Part shown: piece after piece, positions 2,736 to 12,277 of the stretch
Position numbering within the stretch: position 1 is the first letter of the stretch
How the letters are laid out: every line of letters begins with the position of its first letter
NCBI RefSeq assembly: GCF_013166655.1
Contig: NZ_JABKCA010000010.1
Span: forward strand, 1 to 64,000
Reading direction: 5' to 3'
Source of the DNA: Lentimicrobium sp. L6
GTDB taxonomy: Bacteria; Bacteroidota; Bacteroidia; Bacteroidales; UBA12170
DNA length: 64,000 nt
Program-made: the position numbers and the translations under genes
The notes under the pieces: model-generated
Seen by the model: only the letters and a program-made list of their open reading frames with translations
What the model was told of the DNA's origin: nothing
Database searches by the model: none

Positions 2736-3443
2736 TTAAAATGCAAGATAAAAATCTTTTGTGACACGGCGATACTCTTCGGTATAATCATTCCCTTCTT
2801 CCCGAATAATGATGTTTTCCTTTGTCGTTTTGCAAGGTGATAATACAAACTCCAAAACCAAGCGATTGGCTATTTTAGAAGGTTTGGGCTGTATCTCCAC
2901 TCTTCTTTGTAGATAAAACTGATAAGATGAGGCTATCTTAATAAATTCTTCTCCTTCGGTAAATGGGAGTATTAATGCTAGTTTTCCATGAGTGAAAAGA
3001 AGTTGACGAGCAGAATGAAGTAGGTCTTGGGAGCTTAAAGTATCATTATGTCTGGCTTTATTCCTGCTTTCCAATGGCGATTTTAAGGCATTCTCAAAAA
3101 ATGGAGGATTGCTGATGAGGAGGTCAAACTTCTGATCTGATAGTTTTGCATATTCTTGCATACTGCATTCCGATGCTTTCAATCTGCTATTCCACTTGGA
3201 GGACTCAAAATTCTCCTGGGCTTGTTCCACCGAATCCTTGTCAATATCAATTGCCGAGATTTGAGCTTTCGATTTTTGAGCACACATTAAAGAAATGACT
3301 CCGCTACCACATCCAATATCCAATATTTTCCCATAGTTTTCCATCTCCACTAATGCGGCTAAGAGCACAGCGTCTGTTCCTACTTTCATGGAACTTTTAT
3401 CATGAAAAACGCTGAATTGTTTAAAATTGAATGGCTTTGACAT
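2736..3443 (-). CDS. trmN6: tRNA1(Val) (adenine(37)-N6)-methyltransferase
   Basis: This 235-aa class I SAM-dependent methyltransferase of the TrmN6/YfiC type modifies A37 of tRNA1-Val next to the anticodon. Visible elements are the family N-terminus with FKQFSVFHDKSSMKVGTDAVLL, the SAM-binding loop ILDIGCGSGVISLM (about residues 40-53), an acidic residue at AIDID, and the N6-adenine catalytic motif SNPPFF (about residue 112). Length matches the family. The start at 3443 agrees with the conserved N-terminal motif. It is transcribed in the same direction as rimM but separated from it by a tandem repeat block, so an operon link is doubtful. Confidence 0.88.
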   Translation of the reverse strand: MSKPFNFKQFSVFHDKSSMKVGTDAVLLAALVEMENYGKILDIGCGSGVISLMCAQKSKAQISAIDIDKDSVEQAQENFESSKWNSRLKASECSMQEYAKLSDQKFDLLISNPPFFENALKSPLESRNKARHNDTLSSQDLLHSARQLLFTHGKLALILPFTEGEEFIKIASSYQFYLQRRVEIQPKPSKIANRLVLEFVLSPCKTTKENIIIREEGNDYTEEYRRVTKDFYLAF

Positions 3444-3512
3444 GGGTAAAGAGGTTGAGAGGTTGGGGTTTAGAGATTGGTTTTTTAATAGGGGATTTAT
3501 ATATTATTAGAA

Positions 3513-3710
3513 GTATTAAGCATTAAGCATTAAGCATGAAGGATGAAGCATTAAGCATGAAGGATGAAGCATTAAGCATGAAGGATGAAGGATGAAGGAT
3601 GAAGCTTGGATTTTATCCGTCATCGGTCATCCGTCATCAAGCATCCGTCATCCGACTTCCGACTTCCGACTTCCAACTTCCAACTTCTAACTTCCAACTT
3701 CTAACTTCCT
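3513..3710. repeat. Composite tandem repeat of short words (GCATTAAGCATGAAGGATGAA and CGACTTCCAACTTC types)
   Basis: About 200 bp made of decaying short tandem words. First come GCATTAA, GCATGAA and GGATGAA units (3519-3605), then CGTCATC and CATCCGTCATC units (about 3618-3655), then CGACTTC, CAACTTC and TAACTTC units (about 3654-3708). The block ends exactly where the rimM stop begins. It has no coding potential. The 3599-3799 open frame across it is an artefact of the repeat. Such word-grammar repeats are common between genes in Bacteroidota. Confidence 0.8.
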
Positions 3711-4250
3711 TTACTCCTCTTCCGCCAAATAAACGTCCAATAAACCCTCAGGTAGCTCCATTAAAATCTCTTTCTTTTTTCTATCTACATCAAGAATAAA
3801 CTCATCTTTAATGGGGATAAGTACTTCTTTTTTCTCATGAAAAACTTGGAAAAGGGCTTGTTGGGGATAATCCAATATATGATCACACTTGCCAATAAGG
3901 CCGAAGCTTTTCTCAATAATATTGAATCCCAAAACTTCATGAAAGTAGAATTTGGTACCTTCAAGTATAGGTAAGCTAGCTGTAGGAAGATAAAGGAGGC
4001 TATTAACCAAGCTTTGAGCCATATCAATATCATCCACATCCTCAAAATAAACTACGGCAGTATTTTTAGAAGTATGAATCTGCATTTTATCGATAAAATA
4101 GGGGATGAGGCTTCCTCTATAATCCACGAATAGAGCATCTAGGCCAGCATATTCATGAGGGTTGTCTACATCTAAATAAATACTCAAACCACCTTGATGT
4201 CCGTTGGTTCTTGTAATTTTCCCTAGGTAATAACATTCTTCTTTAGTCAT
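3711..4250 (-). CDS. rimM: 16S rRNA processing protein RimM
   Basis: RimM binds ribosomal protein S19 and helps mature the head of the 30S subunit. The protein has the N-terminal RimM beta-barrel signature (YYLGKITRTNGHQGGL), a DVDNP loop, and a PRC-barrel C-terminal half that starts around FYFHEVLGFNIIE and contains VLIPIKDEFILDVD. I chose the ATG at 4250 (MTKEECYYLGKI) over the GTG at 4268 because the conserved domain starts directly after it. It lies downstream of rpsP, as is usual, but a strong hairpin terminator lies between the two (4341-4379). At about 179 aa it is normal length. Confidence 0.92.
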   Translation of the reverse strand: MTKEECYYLGKITRTNGHQGGLSIYLDVDNPHEYAGLDALFVDYRGSLIPYFIDKMQIHTSKNTAVVYFEDVDDIDMAQSLVNSLLYLPTASLPILEGTKFYFHEVLGFNIIEKSFGLIGKCDHILDYPQQALFQVFHEKKEVLIPIKDEFILDVDRKKKEILMELPEGLLDVYLAEEE

Positions 4251-4340
4251 GGAAAGATATTTTTGCACGAAGTTTCAAGTTTGAAGCATGAAGGTTTATG
4301 CTCTTCTCCAAAATTTTTCGGCTGTTAATATTATGGCTTA

Positions 4341-4379
4341 CAAAAATAAAAAAAACCGCCATGAAAGATCAGGGCGGTT
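4341..4379 (-). terminator. Rho-independent terminator/attenuator between rpsP and rimM
   Basis: On the minus strand AACCGCC (from 4379 to 4373) pairs with GGCGGTT (4360 to 4354) across a 12-base loop, followed by a run of T residues. It sits 23 bp after the rpsP stop and about 90 bp before the rimM start. Transcription of rimM from the rpsP promoter would therefore have to read through it. Confidence 0.8.
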
Positions 4380-4401
4380 CTTATTTTTAAGAGAAAAAAT
4401 G

Positions 4402-4998
4402 CTATTCAGCAGTTTCTTCTTTTGCTTCTTCAGCAGGAGCTTCTTCGCTTGCAGCTTCTTCAACAGGAGCGGCAGCAGCTTCGGCAGCAGCAGCTTCAGC
4501 GGCTTTTGCAGCGGCAGCAGCTTCAAGAGCAGCTTGGGCATCAGCTCTTTGCTTTGCAAACTCAGCTTTACGAGCTTCGTTTACTTCAGCTTCAGCAGCT
4601 AAACGCTTCTTAAGGTCTTCTCTAGTAGTGTCTACTAAACCTTTAGCTTTTGCTTCAATCTTAGCTTCTTTTTCTGCTAACCATTCTTTGAATAAGATCT
4701 CAACCTTATCTTCAGTTAAAGCACCTTTTTTAACTCCTCTTAATAAGTGTTCTTTATATAAAACACCTTTGTAGGATAAAATTGCTTTTGCAGTGTCTGT
4801 AGGTTGAGCCCCAACTGTTACCCAATGCATTGCTCTTTCGAAATCTAATTCGATAGTTGCTGGGTTAGTCATAGGATCGTAAGTGCCAATCTTCTCTATT
4901 AATTTTCCATCACGAGGTGCACGACCATCTGCAATTACAATGTGGAAAAAAGGACGTCCTTTTTTACCTTTTCTTTGTAATCTAATTTTTGCTGGCAT
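4402..4998 (-). CDS. rpsP: 30S ribosomal protein S16 with long Ala/Glu-rich C-terminal extension
   Basis: The first about 80 residues are S16: MPAKIRLQRKGKKGRPFFHIVIADGR-type start, IEKIGTYDPMTNPATIELD, and HWVTVGAQPTDTAKAILSYKGVLY. S16 stabilises the 5' domain of 16S rRNA. Most bacterial S16 proteins have 80-100 residues; this one has 198. The extra about 100 residues are a lysine-rich helix followed by Ala/Glu low complexity (KAAEAAAAEAAAAPVEEAA), ending in acidic KEETAE. Extended S16 is common in Bacteroidota; the role of the tail is not known to me. It is followed by a terminator and then rimM. Confidence 0.95.
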   Translation of the reverse strand: MPAKIRLQRKGKKGRPFFHIVIADGRAPRDGKLIEKIGTYDPMTNPATIELDFERAMHWVTVGAQPTDTAKAILSYKGVLYKEHLLRGVKKGALTEDKVEILFKEWLAEKEAKIEAKAKGLVDTTREDLKKRLAAEAEVNEARKAEFAKQRADAQAALEAAAAAKAAEAAAAEAAAAPVEEAASEEAPAEEAKEETAE

Positions 4999-5223
4999 AA
5001 TTGCTTAATTTTTAATTATTTATATACTTAATCTTAAAAATGGGTGCAAATATCGTAATAAGTATTGAATTAGAAAAGCTTTTTCCTTAAAAATCAATGA
5101 TTTAATTCATTTTATATCATATCAATGGAAAGACCTAGTTTATGATGTTGGTATACAGAAGGATAGTGTTGAAATGATAAATATTGAAATCTATTAAATA
5201 TCCGGTTTAAGTAGGTTGAATTA

Positions 5224-7308: not shown

Positions 7309-7983
7309 TTAGCTATTCTTTTTTAAGAAGCCATAAAATATAAGAGCTTGTGCGGAGGTATAAGTGCTGATTACCCAAATAGGTGAATAGGGAAGGTTAA
7401 ACACAAATTTATTGATGGAAAGAAAACTATCCGATAATAGAAATAATCCAGAACCAGCTAATATATAATGGTAGCTAAGTCTAGGAGTTTGTTTTCTAAT
7501 GATAGCAGTGAGTATAAGACCAAATAATGCTGTTGAATAAAGGAGGATGGCAATGATTAGAAAGTAATCTGGGTTTTGAGGAATTAATTTCCATAATATT
7601 AGAGAAGGCAGTGATAAGAAAATAAGCAGACCGAGTGATAAAATAGTAATTTGAGTAGGATTTAGTTTTATTGGCATTGCTCTGTCTTTTAGGTAAAGAA
7701 TAATATAAAAAATGTGTGCCATCAAAAATGATGTGAGACCAGCCAAAAATTGATTAAATAAGGGCATTAAAAAAGCATCCCCTAGAAAACTGAAGACGAT
7801 GGCAGCAAGATATAAATAGTCATTTTGTTTTGATGCTCTATTTTTAAACAAGAAATAGCCAGTAAATAAGCTGACCATCAGCATGGGTTTTAGGAAGTTT
7901 TCTAAAGTGTTTGCTCCTAAAAGTTGAGAAATAATTACAGAGATGCTTAAAACTATGTAGCAGAAGATAAATTTCTTAATCAT
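7309..7983 (-). CDS. YhhN / TMEM86 family membrane protein (lysoplasmalogenase-like)
   Basis: A polytopic protein of about 224 aa with seven to eight hydrophobic helices and the family-type segments LKPMLMVSLFTGYFLF, IVFSFLGDAFLMP, FLMAHIFYIILYL and LAGSGLFLLSDSFLSINKF. Family members include vertebrate TMEM86B, which hydrolyses the vinyl-ether bond of lysoplasmalogen; bacterial function is mostly untested. Conserved acidic residues in GDAF and LSDS are present. The start at 7983 (MIKKFIF) is chosen because the longer frame from 8025 would begin inside the terminator hairpin of the upstream gene. Confidence 0.82.
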   Translation of the reverse strand: MIKKFIFCYIVLSISVIISQLLGANTLENFLKPMLMVSLFTGYFLFKNRASKQNDYLYLAAIVFSFLGDAFLMPLFNQFLAGLTSFLMAHIFYIILYLKDRAMPIKLNPTQITILSLGLLIFLSLPSLILWKLIPQNPDYFLIIAILLYSTALFGLILTAIIRKQTPRLSYHYILAGSGLFLLSDSFLSINKFVFNLPYSPIWVISTYTSAQALIFYGFLKKNS

Positions 7984-8000
7984 GGTGCGAATATAGAGAG

Positions 8001-8030
8001 AAATAAAAAAGCGATTGAATTTCAATCGCT
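8001..8030 (-). terminator. Terminator downstream of the Omp28 gene
   Basis: AGCGATTGAA (8010-8019) and TTCAATCGCT (8021-8030) form a 10-bp stem. A-rich DNA on the low-coordinate side becomes a T-run on the minus strand. It lies 11 bp after the stop of the minus-strand gene ending at 8041. Confidence 0.82.
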
Positions 8031-8040
8031 TTTTTTTATT

Positions 8041-8856
8041 TTAATTAATCTTTATTTCTTCAACCTGAATGACTTTTTTACTTTCTTGTTCATATAGATA
8101 AACTACTAAGGATAGTTTGTCTGTGACCCAGTCGTCACCCAATTGGAAGTTAGAAAAACTGATACTTTCATTATCTCCTGAATTATAGCTTGCGGAAGGT
8201 AGTGCTTCCCCCCAATTTCCATTAATGGCTCCTCTGAGCACATGCATATGAACATAGTCTTCTTCCATGCCACCCGGAACAACCTGAGGTTTAATAATGC
8301 TATCTTCTGTAATCCAAATTTGAACATTGCCTTGAGATGCAAAACCCTCGATGAAATCAAGATTGACTTCTCCGCTTAGTTTATTACCATTTAAAGAAGG
8401 GGTGATCTCTATATTGACCAGGCTGGTTTCTTCAAATTGCTTTGCAACCTCAGTGGCCCAACCATCTTTGTCAATTAGGTAATTGCCATCGGTATTGACT
8501 CTGTTCACCATTCCGGTTGGATAGGTTTGTACAGAGAAATAACTCTCGTATATGTCTCCAGCCTCTGTTCTGAAATCATAATCAAATGGCGCTGCACTAG
8601 GAGTTGCAAAGAAACCAGCATGAATGGCTACAACTATGAGTTTTTCTCCATAATTACTGGTGTCTTGTAGGGTATGAGCAATTTCATGTGCTAAAGGACA
8701 GTTTACACATTTCTGACCGGTAAAATCTTCTAAAAGAACTTTTTTGTTACCAACAGGTTTCTCAACTTCTTGGGTATAGGGTGCTTCTATCTTATCGCAG
8801 GCGGCGAAAGAAAAGCCAATTATTGTGAGGGCTAAAAATATTTTTAAAACTTTCAT
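8041..8856 (-). CDS. Omp28-related outer membrane lipoprotein with thioredoxin-like CxxC
   Basis: A 271-aa lipoprotein: a signal sequence ends in the lipobox SFAAC (Cys20 acylated). A thioredoxin-like start follows (VLLEDFTGQKCVNCPLAHE) with the CxxC pair at about Cys50/Cys53, then AIHAGFFATP and a beta-rich C-terminal part. The family is named after Porphyromonas Omp28, an outer-membrane adhesin-like protein. The CxxC placement suggests redox or disulfide interaction, which is inference. It is the last gene of a TlpA-DUF6029-Omp28 cluster, 16 bp after the DUF6029 gene, and ends at a terminator. Confidence 0.85.
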   Translation of the reverse strand: MKVLKIFLALTIIGFSFAACDKIEAPYTQEVEKPVGNKKVLLEDFTGQKCVNCPLAHEIAHTLQDTSNYGEKLIVVAIHAGFFATPSAAPFDYDFRTEAGDIYESYFSVQTYPTGMVNRVNTDGNYLIDKDGWATEVAKQFEETSLVNIEITPSLNGNKLSGEVNLDFIEGFASQGNVQIWITEDSIIKPQVVPGGMEEDYVHMHVLRGAINGNWGEALPSASYNSGDNESISFSNFQLGDDWVTDKLSLVVYLYEQESKKVIQVEEIKIN

Positions 8857-8872
8857 TTTCTTTTAGTTTAAA

Positions 8873-10600
8873 TTAGAAACTACTGGTGATGGTAATTTTG
8901 AATCCATTGGATTTAGGCACTGCGCGACAAACTCCGCCTACGCATAATATGCCTTCTCTTTGACGACCATATGATAATAATACCCTGGTAGTGCCTTTGG
9001 TATAGCCGGCAGCTATTGTGGGGTAATGTAGTTTGTCGTATTTGTTTTCGTGATATTCTCCTTGATCATTAGTATAAGAGATGATTCCATCGTTATTTAC
9101 ATAATTGTATTGATCGGATACTGCAAGGAACCAAGTTGGAGCAAAGTTATACTCCAAGGTAGAAGCAATCCAATTTCCTTGATCTTGCTTGGTCAATAAT
9201 TGAGATAGTTCCCAACGAATACTATGTTTTCTTTTAAATCTATAACTTAAATCTGTCACCCAAACAAAAGCCTCCACATTGGGTTCTCCTGGATGGCCTT
9301 CAATCACATCCATATTATAGGTGATCATATCGGCAGATGCAATCAATTTGAAATGCTTATTGATTTTTTTATTGATTTCGAACCCTAAATCTTGGAAGTA
9401 GACTTCATCTCCTATGGATAGGAATTTTGTTTCGTATCCTAGTGTTCCCGATTCGCCAATAGGAGTTTCTGAGTCGAGTTGTGATTTTTCGATGGAGCGA
9501 ATGTGAGAGAAATTGATTTCAATTCCCATTCCGTATTTACCACCGAGTTTAGATTTTTTAGGAACTTTATAATTTAGGGTAGCTTGTATGGCTGCTTCTC
9601 CATTCACTTGGGTGGCATAGGGATACATGGCCGATAGGCTGTAGGTATGAGTCTTAGCATTTGGAGGGAGGAAATTGATAAACAAGGCATCTCCAGTTAC
9701 TGATCTGTCAGATTTGAATCCCATATTGTCGATCCATTTTCCGCTTAAAGCAAAACCAAATCCTTTTTGTGAATAGGACATAGAAGTGAATAAACCTTGG
9801 CCATCTTTATAAATAAAATTATTAATGGCATTTGGGTCGTTGATTTTATGTGCATATTCTGTTTGCCAGAAAAAACCACCATGACTTAAATTAAATCTTG
9901 TTGACCATGACATTACATTTTCAGGTAATTTATAGATAGGATCTAAGTCAGCTTGATATTTACTAATTAACCCTCCGCCAAGTGTTAATTTGGTCTTAGA
10001 GGTCTCAAGACTTGAGAAAAGGTCATTAATGAAAAGATCGACATCACCACCTCTTACTATTCCTCTACTGTCTTTCTCGTATTTTTCCCAAAAAAATCTT
10101 TGTGTACCATAAATACCTTTGATAGTTACTCCTTTTGTGGGAGTTAGAATAATTCTGGCACCATCCACAGAGTTGTCATACCCTAAACTCCATTCTTCGT
10201 AGGCTCTAAATATCATTCCAGAGCCAAATTGCTCATAAAAGTTACCTACTGTTACATCAATGATTCCAGTATTGTATCTGGCCCATCTGTTTGCAAAGCC
10301 CTGACCCTCTAGCCTGTCATCAAAACCTGCTAAAGGGGGAAGATATGCTTCGTAACGAACCCCCGCAGAGAAATTACCCAAGCGGTAAATGATATTACCA
10401 AAGGCATTCATTCTAGCGTCTTTTCCATTAATATCTTCGTTGGTAATTCCCAATTTACTATCAGGTTGGTAAATCTGAGCGTCCAACTGAAAACTTCCGC
10501 TTACTTGTCCGTATTTTTGAGGACTCTGAGCAAAAGCAACTTGTGTAAAAGCGAATAATATCGCAAATACTCCAATCGATTTAAGTATATGTTTTTTCAT
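8873..10600 (-). CDS. DUF6029 family protein, predicted outer-membrane beta-barrel
   Basis: 575 residues with a signal peptide cleaved after about AFAQ (residue 25). The rest is rich in alternating aromatic/hydrophobic strands (GSFQLDAQIYQ, GNFSAGVRYEAYL, KHSIRWELSQLL) and ends in the aromatic FKITITSSF, the pattern of an outer-membrane beta-barrel. A CVGGVC pair near the C-terminus could form a disulfide. The DUF6029 call rests on composition and on its place between a TlpA-like thioredoxin and an Omp28 lipoprotein, a combination I recall from other Bacteroidota. The cargo or ligand is unknown. Confidence 0.75.
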   Translation of the reverse strand: MKKHILKSIGVFAILFAFTQVAFAQSPQKYGQVSGSFQLDAQIYQPDSKLGITNEDINGKDARMNAFGNIIYRLGNFSAGVRYEAYLPPLAGFDDRLEGQGFANRWARYNTGIIDVTVGNFYEQFGSGMIFRAYEEWSLGYDNSVDGARIILTPTKGVTIKGIYGTQRFFWEKYEKDSRGIVRGGDVDLFINDLFSSLETSKTKLTLGGGLISKYQADLDPIYKLPENVMSWSTRFNLSHGGFFWQTEYAHKINDPNAINNFIYKDGQGLFTSMSYSQKGFGFALSGKWIDNMGFKSDRSVTGDALFINFLPPNAKTHTYSLSAMYPYATQVNGEAAIQATLNYKVPKKSKLGGKYGMGIEINFSHIRSIEKSQLDSETPIGESGTLGYETKFLSIGDEVYFQDLGFEINKKINKHFKLIASADMITYNMDVIEGHPGEPNVEAFVWVTDLSYRFKRKHSIRWELSQLLTKQDQGNWIASTLEYNFAPTWFLAVSDQYNYVNNDGIISYTNDQGEYHENKYDKLHYPTIAAGYTKGTTRVLLSYGRQREGILCVGGVCRAVPKSNGFKITITSSF

Positions 10601-10660
10601 TCTATGATATGTTTATATCTTATGCTTCAAACTAAAGGTTCTGAATACTTAATCACGTGA

Positions 10661-11182
10661 TTAGTGTCCAGATATGTCTTCTCCGTTTGCTACTTTTTCA
10701 ATGATTTCAATTAAATCTAATTCTGCACCTTCTGCGAAAGAAGTATGTTGCCAAACAATATTCTTGTTACCATCAAGAACAAAAGTATGAGGAATCATGT
10801 TTACGTTCATAGCTCTCTTAAAATCACCATTAGGATCTAGAAGAACTTCATATTCCCATGCTTTTCCATTAACCAATGGTCCAACCTTAGCAGTAGAACG
10901 TGCATCATCAATTGAAATAGCATAAAGCTTTACGCCAGTTTCCTCTTGCCATTCTTCGTATACATCAGCAATGGTTGTTAACTCCTTAATACATGGGTGA
11001 CACCATAATGCCCAAAAGCTAACTATGATTGGTTTTCCATCATTATCAATATCTGCTGTATTGAAAGATTCTCCAGTGATGGTTTTTACTGTAACTTCTG
11101 GTAAAGTTTTGCCTGCATGATCTTGTGCAAAAATGACTCCAGTGAATAGTATTAAAGCTAAAATGATACTTAATCTCTTCAT
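10661..11182 (-). CDS. TlpA-like periplasmic thioredoxin/peroxiredoxin family protein
   Basis: 173 residues: a signal peptide (to about residue 19, VIFAQ), then a TlpA/ResA-type fold. Features are the redox motif WALWCHPC (Cys61/Cys64), PIIVSFWA before it, a DPNGDF strand-helix, and the cis-proline loop NMIPHTF. It probably reduces or isomerises disulfides in the periplasm. It is the first gene of the cluster, 60 bp upstream of the DUF6029 gene, so the partners are likely the CxxC lipoprotein and the barrel downstream (inference). Confidence 0.88.
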   Translation of the reverse strand: MKRLSIILALILFTGVIFAQDHAGKTLPEVTVKTITGESFNTADIDNDGKPIIVSFWALWCHPCIKELTTIADVYEEWQEETGVKLYAISIDDARSTAKVGPLVNGKAWEYEVLLDPNGDFKRAMNVNMIPHTFVLDGNKNIVWQHTSFAEGAELDLIEIIEKVANGEDISGH

Positions 11183-11440: not shown

Positions 11441-12277
11441 TTAGTTGTCGATAATGATGATTTCCACTCTTCTGTTTGCTATTTTCTCTCTGTCGTTTTT
11501 TTCAAACTCAAAGAGTTTTTGTGAAGACCCATAACCTTTATAGGAAAGTCTGTTTTTATTAATTCCTTTAGAGATCAGGTAGGAATATACAGCGAATGCT
11601 CTGTTAACTGATAGGTGGTAATCGCCAGTTAGGGCATCGTAGCCATCGCTTCCATCATATTGGCAGCAAATATGGCCTCTGATTTCAATTTTTATGGCTG
11701 GGTGTTCTTCTAGTGCTTGGTGTAATTGCTCTAATTCGGGGAGTGATTGAGGAAGGACTCTGTGATTTCCTGGTTGGAAATTGATGTTTTTAGCAATAAT
11801 TTTATCTCCAACATCACCTGAGCTTATTTGTTCATCAATTTGTTTAGGAATAGCTTTCTTCTTTGGCTGTTTTTGTTTGGTGGGCTCCTCTGTTTTATTT
11901 TGATGATATTGGTATATAATGGAGACTCTTCTGGAACTAGATAGCTGATTAATATTGTTTTTATCCTCCCCAAATCCTTTTACTTCTTTAAAAATTTCGA
12001 TTGGGAAGTCTAGTTTGAGCAAGGAAAAATAGGTGTAATAGGCTCTTTTATTGGAAAGTTTTTGATTATAGGTATTAGAGGCTATGCTGTCTGTAAATGC
12101 ATTAATCTTAATACTAGTGATTTCAAGTGTTTGGAGTTTTTGGAGTTCATGAAAATGCTCTTCGGTATTCTGAAAATGATCGGTGTCAAAAAACAAATTC
12201 AGGGTATCGGTTTGAATTTGTGCAAAGAGGAGGGAATACACAAATATCATTAGGCATAACAAAAAGATACGTTTCAT
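11441..12277 (-). CDS. OmpA family protein
   Basis: 278 residues with a signal peptide (LLFAQ, about residue 19). A first OmpA-like half has the SNKRAYYTYFSLLKL and SSSRRVSIIYQ pattern, a Lys/Pro-rich linker (QKQPKKKAIPK) follows, and a complete C-terminal OmpA/MotB peptidoglycan-binding domain comes last. The latter shows IEIRGHICC, NRAFAVYSYLISKGINKNRLSYKGYG, and NRRVEI. Two tandem OmpA-like modules without a barrel suggest a periplasmic or lipid-free anchor linking the envelope to peptidoglycan. It stands alone. Confidence 0.83.
   Translation of the reverse strand: MKRIFLLCLMIFVYSLLFAQIQTDTLNLFFDTDHFQNTEEHFHELQKLQTLEITSIKINAFTDSIASNTYNQKLSNKRAYYTYFSLLKLDFPIEIFKEVKGFGEDKNNINQLSSSRRVSIIYQYHQNKTEEPTKQKQPKKKAIPKQIDEQISSGDVGDKIIAKNINFQPGNHRVLPQSLPELEQLHQALEEHPAIKIEIRGHICCQYDGSDGYDALTGDYHLSVNRAFAVYSYLISKGINKNRLSYKGYGSSQKLFEFEKNDREKIANRRVEIIIIDN

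Follow-up and report, generated by a model that had tools for sequence, protein, structure and literature searches.

Thiol-disulfide systems have been described for the cytoplasm, the inner membrane and the periplasm; we know of none that is built into the outer membrane. Relays of the DsbD/ScsB type consist of a membrane protein with a cysteine pair and thioredoxin-like partners, and in LptD-LptE a barrel is combined with a lipoprotein and the disulfides of the barrel matter. A three-gene cluster with likenesses to both was found in Lentimicrobium sp. L6, within a stretch of 64,000 nucleotides (contig NZ_JABKCA010000010.1, positions 1 to 64,000; here called the window). It encodes a periplasmic thioredoxin, a DUF6029 outer-membrane beta-barrel and an Omp28 lipoprotein, and we tentatively read the three genes as an outer-membrane thiol-disulfide module working as a relay, with a probability of roughly 0.4. 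Unlike DsbD and ScsB, which are helical inner-membrane proteins, the DUF6029 protein is a predicted outer-membrane barrel whose one pair would lie on the outer side. It also differs from LptD-LptE, in that LptE has no thioredoxin fold and the family scan of the DUF6029 protein gave PF19494 alone (584.7 bits against a cut-off of 27), with no match to DsbD_TM, the helical inner-membrane core.

By fold, the closest described protein is HBP35 of Porphyromonas gingivalis (5y1a), the best solved match of the AlphaFold model of the window Omp28 (Z 24.7, rmsd 2.6, 220 aligned residues). The likeness extends across the mature protein, comprising the thioredoxin domain, the beta-sandwich and the CxxC motif. 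HBP35 is reported to be held at the surface, to reduce insulin by way of its CxxC, to bind hemin at another site of the protein and to need a conserved C-terminal domain for transport (PMC2907840). The window Omp28, in contrast, has no tail of this kind, with no match to TIGR04183 or PF18962 at E up to 1, and is predicted to be a lipoprotein. The next fold matches were 2axo (Z 18.9) and 2r2c (Z 10.0). The latter is the C-terminal part of a P. gingivalis Omp28, solved from inside the thioredoxin fold onward with the CxxC half unseen, and it also matched residues 96 to 271 of the window Omp28 by sequence (E 4e-19); the window protein scored 198.7 bits with NF033782, above the NCBIfam cut-off of 150. 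The solved structure nearest to the window thioredoxin was 2m72 (E 7e-49). Judging by adjacent tags, 2r2c is probably PG2173, PG2174 a DUF6029 protein and PG2175 the thioredoxin 2m72. PG2175-PG2174-PG2173 would then be the same operon. PG2173 is called an Omp28 lipoprotein in PMC9722745, and PG2174 has been reported as an uncharacterised vesicle protein. An Omp28-related protein of Paraprevotella clara is reported to be needed for the recruitment and degradation of trypsin (PMC9477747), which ties an Omp28-type protein to the handling of outside proteins. The accessible parts of the literature found on DUF6029, Omp28 and PG2173 to PG2175 do not describe the trio, a weak negative given that most subscription papers were not covered. 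The families are known singly, and together they would form a variant of envelope thiol-exchange systems.

The original prediction had placed three envelope proteins in a row, and the three open reading frames (ORFs) were all found where it put them on the minus strand, with families that agree in the scans (Table 1). They are co-directional, read in the order thioredoxin, DUF6029, Omp28, and are separated by gaps of 60 and 16 nt. The thioredoxin matched PF00578 and PF08534, which are generic thioredoxin families. It remained below the NCBIfam subfamily cut-offs for ResA (66.8 against 170 bits), StoA (64.4 against 210) and DsbE (44.3 against 123.15), and it is therefore kept as a generic thioredoxin. 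The models add two points to the earlier picture: Omp28 has a complete thioredoxin fold with CVNC as its active site, and the barrel pair lies, by strand order, on the outer face. P113 of Omp28 is presumably the cis-Pro, a role given from general knowledge of the thioredoxin fold.

Table 1. Genes and sites of the trio, in window coordinates
Feature	Position	Strand	Remarks
Thioredoxin, TlpA/ResA-like, periplasmic	10661..11182	-	173 aa; signal peptide yes, lipobox no (both by eye)
CHPC active site, C61 and C64 (residues 61-64) of thioredoxin	10991..11002	-	
DUF6029 outer-membrane beta-barrel	8873..10600	-	575 aa; PF19494 E 2e-175; AF2 pLDDT 93.1
C553-VGGV-C558 hairpin of DUF6029, predicted last extracellular loop (L12)	8927..8944	-	Loop from model strand order
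Omp28 lipoprotein, thioredoxin domain and beta-sandwich	8041..8856	-	271 aa; NF033782; AF2 pLDDT 94.4; 5y1a Z 24.7
Omp28 lipobox cysteine C20 (FAAC)	8797..8799	-	Invariant in 60 aligned Omp28
Omp28 CVNC active site, C50 and C53	8698..8709	-	Invariant in 60 aligned Omp28 and 69 draw partners
Omp28 P113 (YPTG), proposed thioredoxin cis-Pro	8518..8520	-	Invariant in 60 aligned Omp28

Linkage of the three genes was followed in two samples. For the draw, 395 Bacteroidota genomes were taken from across the phylum; DUF6029 was found in 98 of them, and the matches were fetched with about 5 kb of flanking sequence in either direction (98 stretches). One locus, L136, was dropped as its DUF6029 match was weak and below the Pfam cut-off, and 98 loci including the window were analysed. 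The named set comprised 80 loci, the best 80 by similarity, and the draw is for this reason the fairer sample. The nearest named relative found for the window barrel, from a Bacteroidales metagenome-assembled genome (MAG; L137), is 78% identical.

A thioredoxin on the same strand was located directly upstream of DUF6029 in 73 of 96 draw loci and in 73 of 76 named loci with room for it, and in five more draw loci the upstream thioredoxin was divergent. The expectation by chance was about 0.6 upstream thioredoxins per 96 loci (30 AhpC-TSA matches, 4,500 genes assumed), an estimate that treats the loci as independent although they are related. The possibility that the families are found together only by chance is refuted by this comparison. 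A length limit of 215 aa for thioredoxins excluded over-long ORFs with WCxPC directly upstream in L062, L055, L072 and L109, and the draw count and the trio counts may therefore be up to four too low. In L147 the thioredoxin was found at 425 nt, and in L081 and L086 one gene intervened. Downstream, a partner with a thioredoxin fold directly followed DUF6029 in 67 of 96 draw loci and 71 of 73 named loci with room, where a partner was defined as an ORF scoring better with the partner profile than with the thioredoxin profile, or of at least 215 aa, redoxin types included. The gap was at most 20 nt for 113 of 145 downstream partners. Among the 164 loci with room both upstream and downstream, 115 had the whole trio on one strand; the draw accounted for 50 (of 95 such loci) and the named set for 65 (of 69). 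One locus that carries all three genes is L193, from Hymenobacter duratus BT646.

The cysteine pairs of all three proteins were strongly conserved. The barrel alignment of 98 rows had a cysteine in at least eight rows at two columns only, corresponding to C553 and C558 of the window protein. The C-x4-C pair was present in 96 of 96 complete draw barrels, which leave out L075 (truncated) and L073 (broken across two frames), and the second piece of the L073 barrel carries CVGGVC. Among the named barrels, 79 of 80 had the pair, and the remaining one ends inside the motif at a contig edge; the alignment of named barrels comprised 74 of 78, together with the window protein. WCxxC was found in 154 of 155 upstream thioredoxins, as WCKPC in 97, with a contig-edge fragment as the exception; these 155 include divergent genes and some at contig edges. 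CxxC was kept in 69 of 69 aligned draw partners, one per draw locus with room, namely the first found at a distance of up to 650 nt. The 60 aligned Omp28 proteins (Table 1) were the window protein and 59 of 61 named partners, filtered to lengths of 255 to 345 aa. The redox cysteine pairs predicted for the three proteins are thus conserved in their relatives.

The AlphaFold model of the DUF6029 protein is nearly all beta, with 24 long strands by our own count, and its loops and turns alternate, mostly long against short; the chain ends in a C-terminal phenylalanine. The topology was read from the secondary-structure string with general rules for barrels. It predicts that the C553-C558 hairpin lies in the last extracellular loop, L12, and that the C-terminal phenylalanine stands on the expected periplasmic side. 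Strands carried a mean information of 1.61 bits per position, compared with 1.36 for the extracellular loops and 1.02 for the periplasmic turns. Among the extracellular loops the mean peaked in L12 (3.16), L3 (2.40) and L7 (1.84), with the other nine at 0.50 to 1.36, and positions of at least 2.5 bits made up 24 of 215 extracellular, 1 of 48 periplasmic-turn and 35 of 280 strand positions. We take the extracellular peaks to mark a functional site, either at the outer face of the barrel or in its lumen. No close relative was among the matches listed in a fold search with this model. Those matches included two kinds of channel, OccK and AlgE, with Z up to 18.9 at an rmsd of about 6, as well as pilus ushers with Z up to 17.7 at an rmsd of 4.2 to 5.0; all look generic for large barrels. 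When PDB sequences were searched with the DUF6029 profile, six matches were obtained, the best being RecA (E 7e-5); no stretch passed individually, and the result was rejected as spurious.

The downstream partner varied between loci. In the Omp28 model, CVNC lies at a helix start in the thioredoxin fold, and the beta-sandwich follows. By type, 50 of the 69 draw partners were Omp28 and 19 were Redoxin, with the absence of overlap inferred from their sum; a type IX sorting tail (TIGR04183) was carried by 19 of the 69. Common to the partners are a thioredoxin fold, its CxxC and a probable location at the surface. The type and the export route of the partner vary while the CxxC stays, and a shared thiol-disulfide function at the outer membrane is therefore the likeliest explanation. 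By analogy with HBP35 and the tail-bearing partners, the window Omp28 itself would be located at the surface.

Several variants of the partner were observed. The direct partner in loci of one family (f25) is a redoxin-type protein, the dropped weak locus L136 apart, and in most of these loci DUF6029 is preceded by a thioredoxin and followed by a redoxin of about 175 aa (with a lipobox by pattern in eight) and then by a thioredoxin of 265 to 275 aa. As many as three thioredoxins surround one barrel in the f25 loci L116 to L134, and in L132, L134 and L118 a type-IX-like tail ends the direct partner itself. In nine of the named loci, most of them from ruminant MAGs judging by their titles, Omp28 has an N-terminal extension of about 170 residues before its CxxC. 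The host genome of the window (5.1 Mb, 195 contigs) has one DUF6029 match, 13 Omp28-domain matches and 30 AhpC-TSA matches; at all seven examined of the 12 other Omp28 loci, the longest ORF has a CxxC and a type-IX-like tail, as judged by eye. NF045500, a family of Omp28-related selenoproteins, matched 47 of the 69 partners at E 0.001, and the window Omp28 scored 58.8 against a cut-off of 200. Selenocysteine at the CxxC of NF045500 would, if true, be strong evidence of a redox function. Nothing was found in the literature that joins Omp28 with a selenoprotein, where coverage of subscription papers was poor.

At the level of whole draw genomes, the presence of DUF6029 followed that of close NF033782 matches. 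DUF6029 was present in 67 of 69 genomes with a best match at E 2e-12 or better, 67 of 70 at 1e-11 and 73 of 76 at 1e-10, and at looser cuts in 74 of 82 (5e-9) and 79 of 115 (1e-3). One genome without DUF6029 (G331) has a match of 3.8e-12, just past the 2e-12 cut. Conversely, 19 DUF6029 genomes had no NF033782 match at these cuts, 17 of them in family f25. The type IX translocon marker SprA_N was found in 303 of the 395 genomes, and DUF6029 was present in 97 of these 303 and in one of the 92 without it (G230; Fisher p 4e-12, with lists compared by eye). This pattern may be partly explained by shared ancestry, as 14 of 20 listed genomes without SprA_N belong to one family, f19, which confounds the association. 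The exception, L066 in the 99%-complete genome G230, holds the full trio without a SprA_N match, and the type IX system may therefore not be required.

In the proposed relay, DsbD in the inner membrane would keep the periplasmic thioredoxin reduced, and the thioredoxin would hand reducing equivalents to the DUF6029 barrel, whose sole conserved cysteines are the L12 pair. This pair would exchange with the CVNC of the surface-held Omp28 thioredoxin domain, and Omp28, possibly with other surface thioredoxin-like proteins, would then reduce or isomerise disulfides in proteins, whether secreted or external, or in ligands. The weakest step is the periplasmic thioredoxin reaching an extracellular loop, which would need a wide 24-strand barrel or a mobile loop. 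In L041 a complete DsbD gene with all domains (2906-5059) comes directly after DUF6029, and in L172 (7666-9765) and L188 (7733-9841) a complete DsbD gene directly follows Omp28 on the same strand; the host genome has a DsbD_TM match within a 684-aa frame. These genes fit the relay, though three loci are few. The fullest form of the relay would run across the outer membrane, from DsbD through the periplasmic thioredoxin and the extracellular redox loop of the 24-strand barrel to the surface thioredoxin, thus from cytoplasm to surface. The many Omp28 proteins of this genome that bear tails may be supplied by it as well. We consider this version of the relay possible but on the doubtful side.

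Several observations weigh against the relay. By model strand order the barrel pair lies outside, where a periplasmic thioredoxin would not easily reach it, and a structural disulfide would be equally conserved. DsbD was nearby in only 3 of 178 loci in a search with a single query. Of 172 loci with room upstream, 21 gave no call of a thioredoxin immediately before DUF6029, although 4 of these 21 hold WCxPC upstream and are artefacts of the 215-aa limit. A directly adjacent downstream partner was missing in 31 of 169 loci with room, and 14 of the 29 draw loci among them have a partner-profile match upstream, several without CxxC. Locus counts overstate independence since the loci are related. 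TonB-receptor-like ORFs were found in 17 loci, 14 of them L118 to L133 of f25. Eleven f25 loci have a gene of an iron-dependent-repressor family, each time on the opposite strand. Both kinds of gene lie at about 1.7 to 5.7 kb from DUF6029, and one further thioredoxin recurs near the f25 trio. These genes point to another role there.

As an alternative, the thioredoxin may serve assembly. An invariant pair in a hairpin can be structural, and the thioredoxin would be a dedicated oxidoreductase or isomerase that sets the disulfides of the barrel, and perhaps of Omp28, in the periplasm, with Omp28 as a surface subunit. The problem of reach would not arise, as thioredoxin and barrel would meet before insertion. 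Pairs of a barrel and a lipoprotein are common in Bacteroidota, and LptD, by analogy, depends on disulfide formation. We regard assembly as a serious but unlikely explanation, which leaves unexplained why the surface partner has a CxxC in all 69 cases and a thioredoxin fold even when it is of the redoxin type. Quite unlikely in our view is uptake, in which the barrel would import a redox-active ligand (heme or iron, cystine, a disulfide peptide or a metal) caught by the surface thioredoxin-like protein and processed by the periplasmic thioredoxin. The wide barrel, with OccK and AlgE among its fold matches, would suit import, as would the receptor-like ORFs and repressors near f25 trios. However, these iron-related genes lie outside the trio at varying distances, with the repressor on the opposite strand and mostly in f25, where common ancestry is possible. 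HBP35, the closest fold, cuts both ways: it is reported to bind hemin, and its mutants grow slowly under hemin shortage, but the hemin site lies outside the CxxC (PMC2907840).

Two other roles of the barrel are far less probable. As a Wzi-like porin, DUF6029 would secrete a polysaccharide, and according to PMC9603273 Wzi-type barrel homologues resemble DUF6029 in HHpred comparisons. Slight support comes from a phosphomannose isomerase gene just upstream of the thioredoxin, about 2 kb from DUF6029, in about 46 loci that all come from the named set (L138 to L215), many of them from Bacteroidales. On the other hand, no polysaccharide-export or glycosyltransferase family was recognised by eye in the neighbour clusters of at least eight loci, the model has 24 strands by our count and not 18, and polymer export leaves the cysteines and the thioredoxins without a role. 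Wzi was absent among the 50 best rows of each fold search with the DUF6029 model, and a missing row proves nothing. We consider polymer export very improbable. It is also highly unlikely that DUF6029 is a dedicated exporter bringing Omp28 to the surface; the tight adjacency of barrel and partner genes would agree with such a role, but the partners that end in a type IX sorting tail have their own way out. The part of the original prediction that concerned a recurrent trio with constrained pairs stands, and a thiol relay or disulfide-dependent complex is partly supported. There is good support for a conserved module of thiol exchange at the outer membrane. The parts, their conservation, folds and linkage come from sequence, model or gene order. 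We infer the surface location of Omp28, the contact between the proteins, the electron flow and its direction, and the substrate. A disulfide-dependent complex of barrel and lipoprotein without a relay, or a role in uptake, likewise fits the data.

The neighbour clusters were built by single linkage and contain some antisense ORFs (e.g., in L166); only clusters of at least eight loci were considered, and the TonB-receptor, repressor and isomerase labels come from Pfam matches of one member per cluster. The phosphomannose isomerase was the commonest recurrent neighbour. At its place the window has an OmpA-domain gene (11441-12277, same strand), 258 nt upstream of the trio. Omp28 is directly followed, on its own strand, by a gene for a YhhN-family membrane protein (7309-8025), a family that was not recognised among these clusters.

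The relay, with its named cysteines and partner genes, is directly testable. If true, it would give DUF6029 a function and would explain how electrons are supplied to surface thioredoxin-like proteins such as HBP35 and Omp28 in Bacteroidota, with a bearing on the folding of secreted proteins or on the capture of heme and iron.

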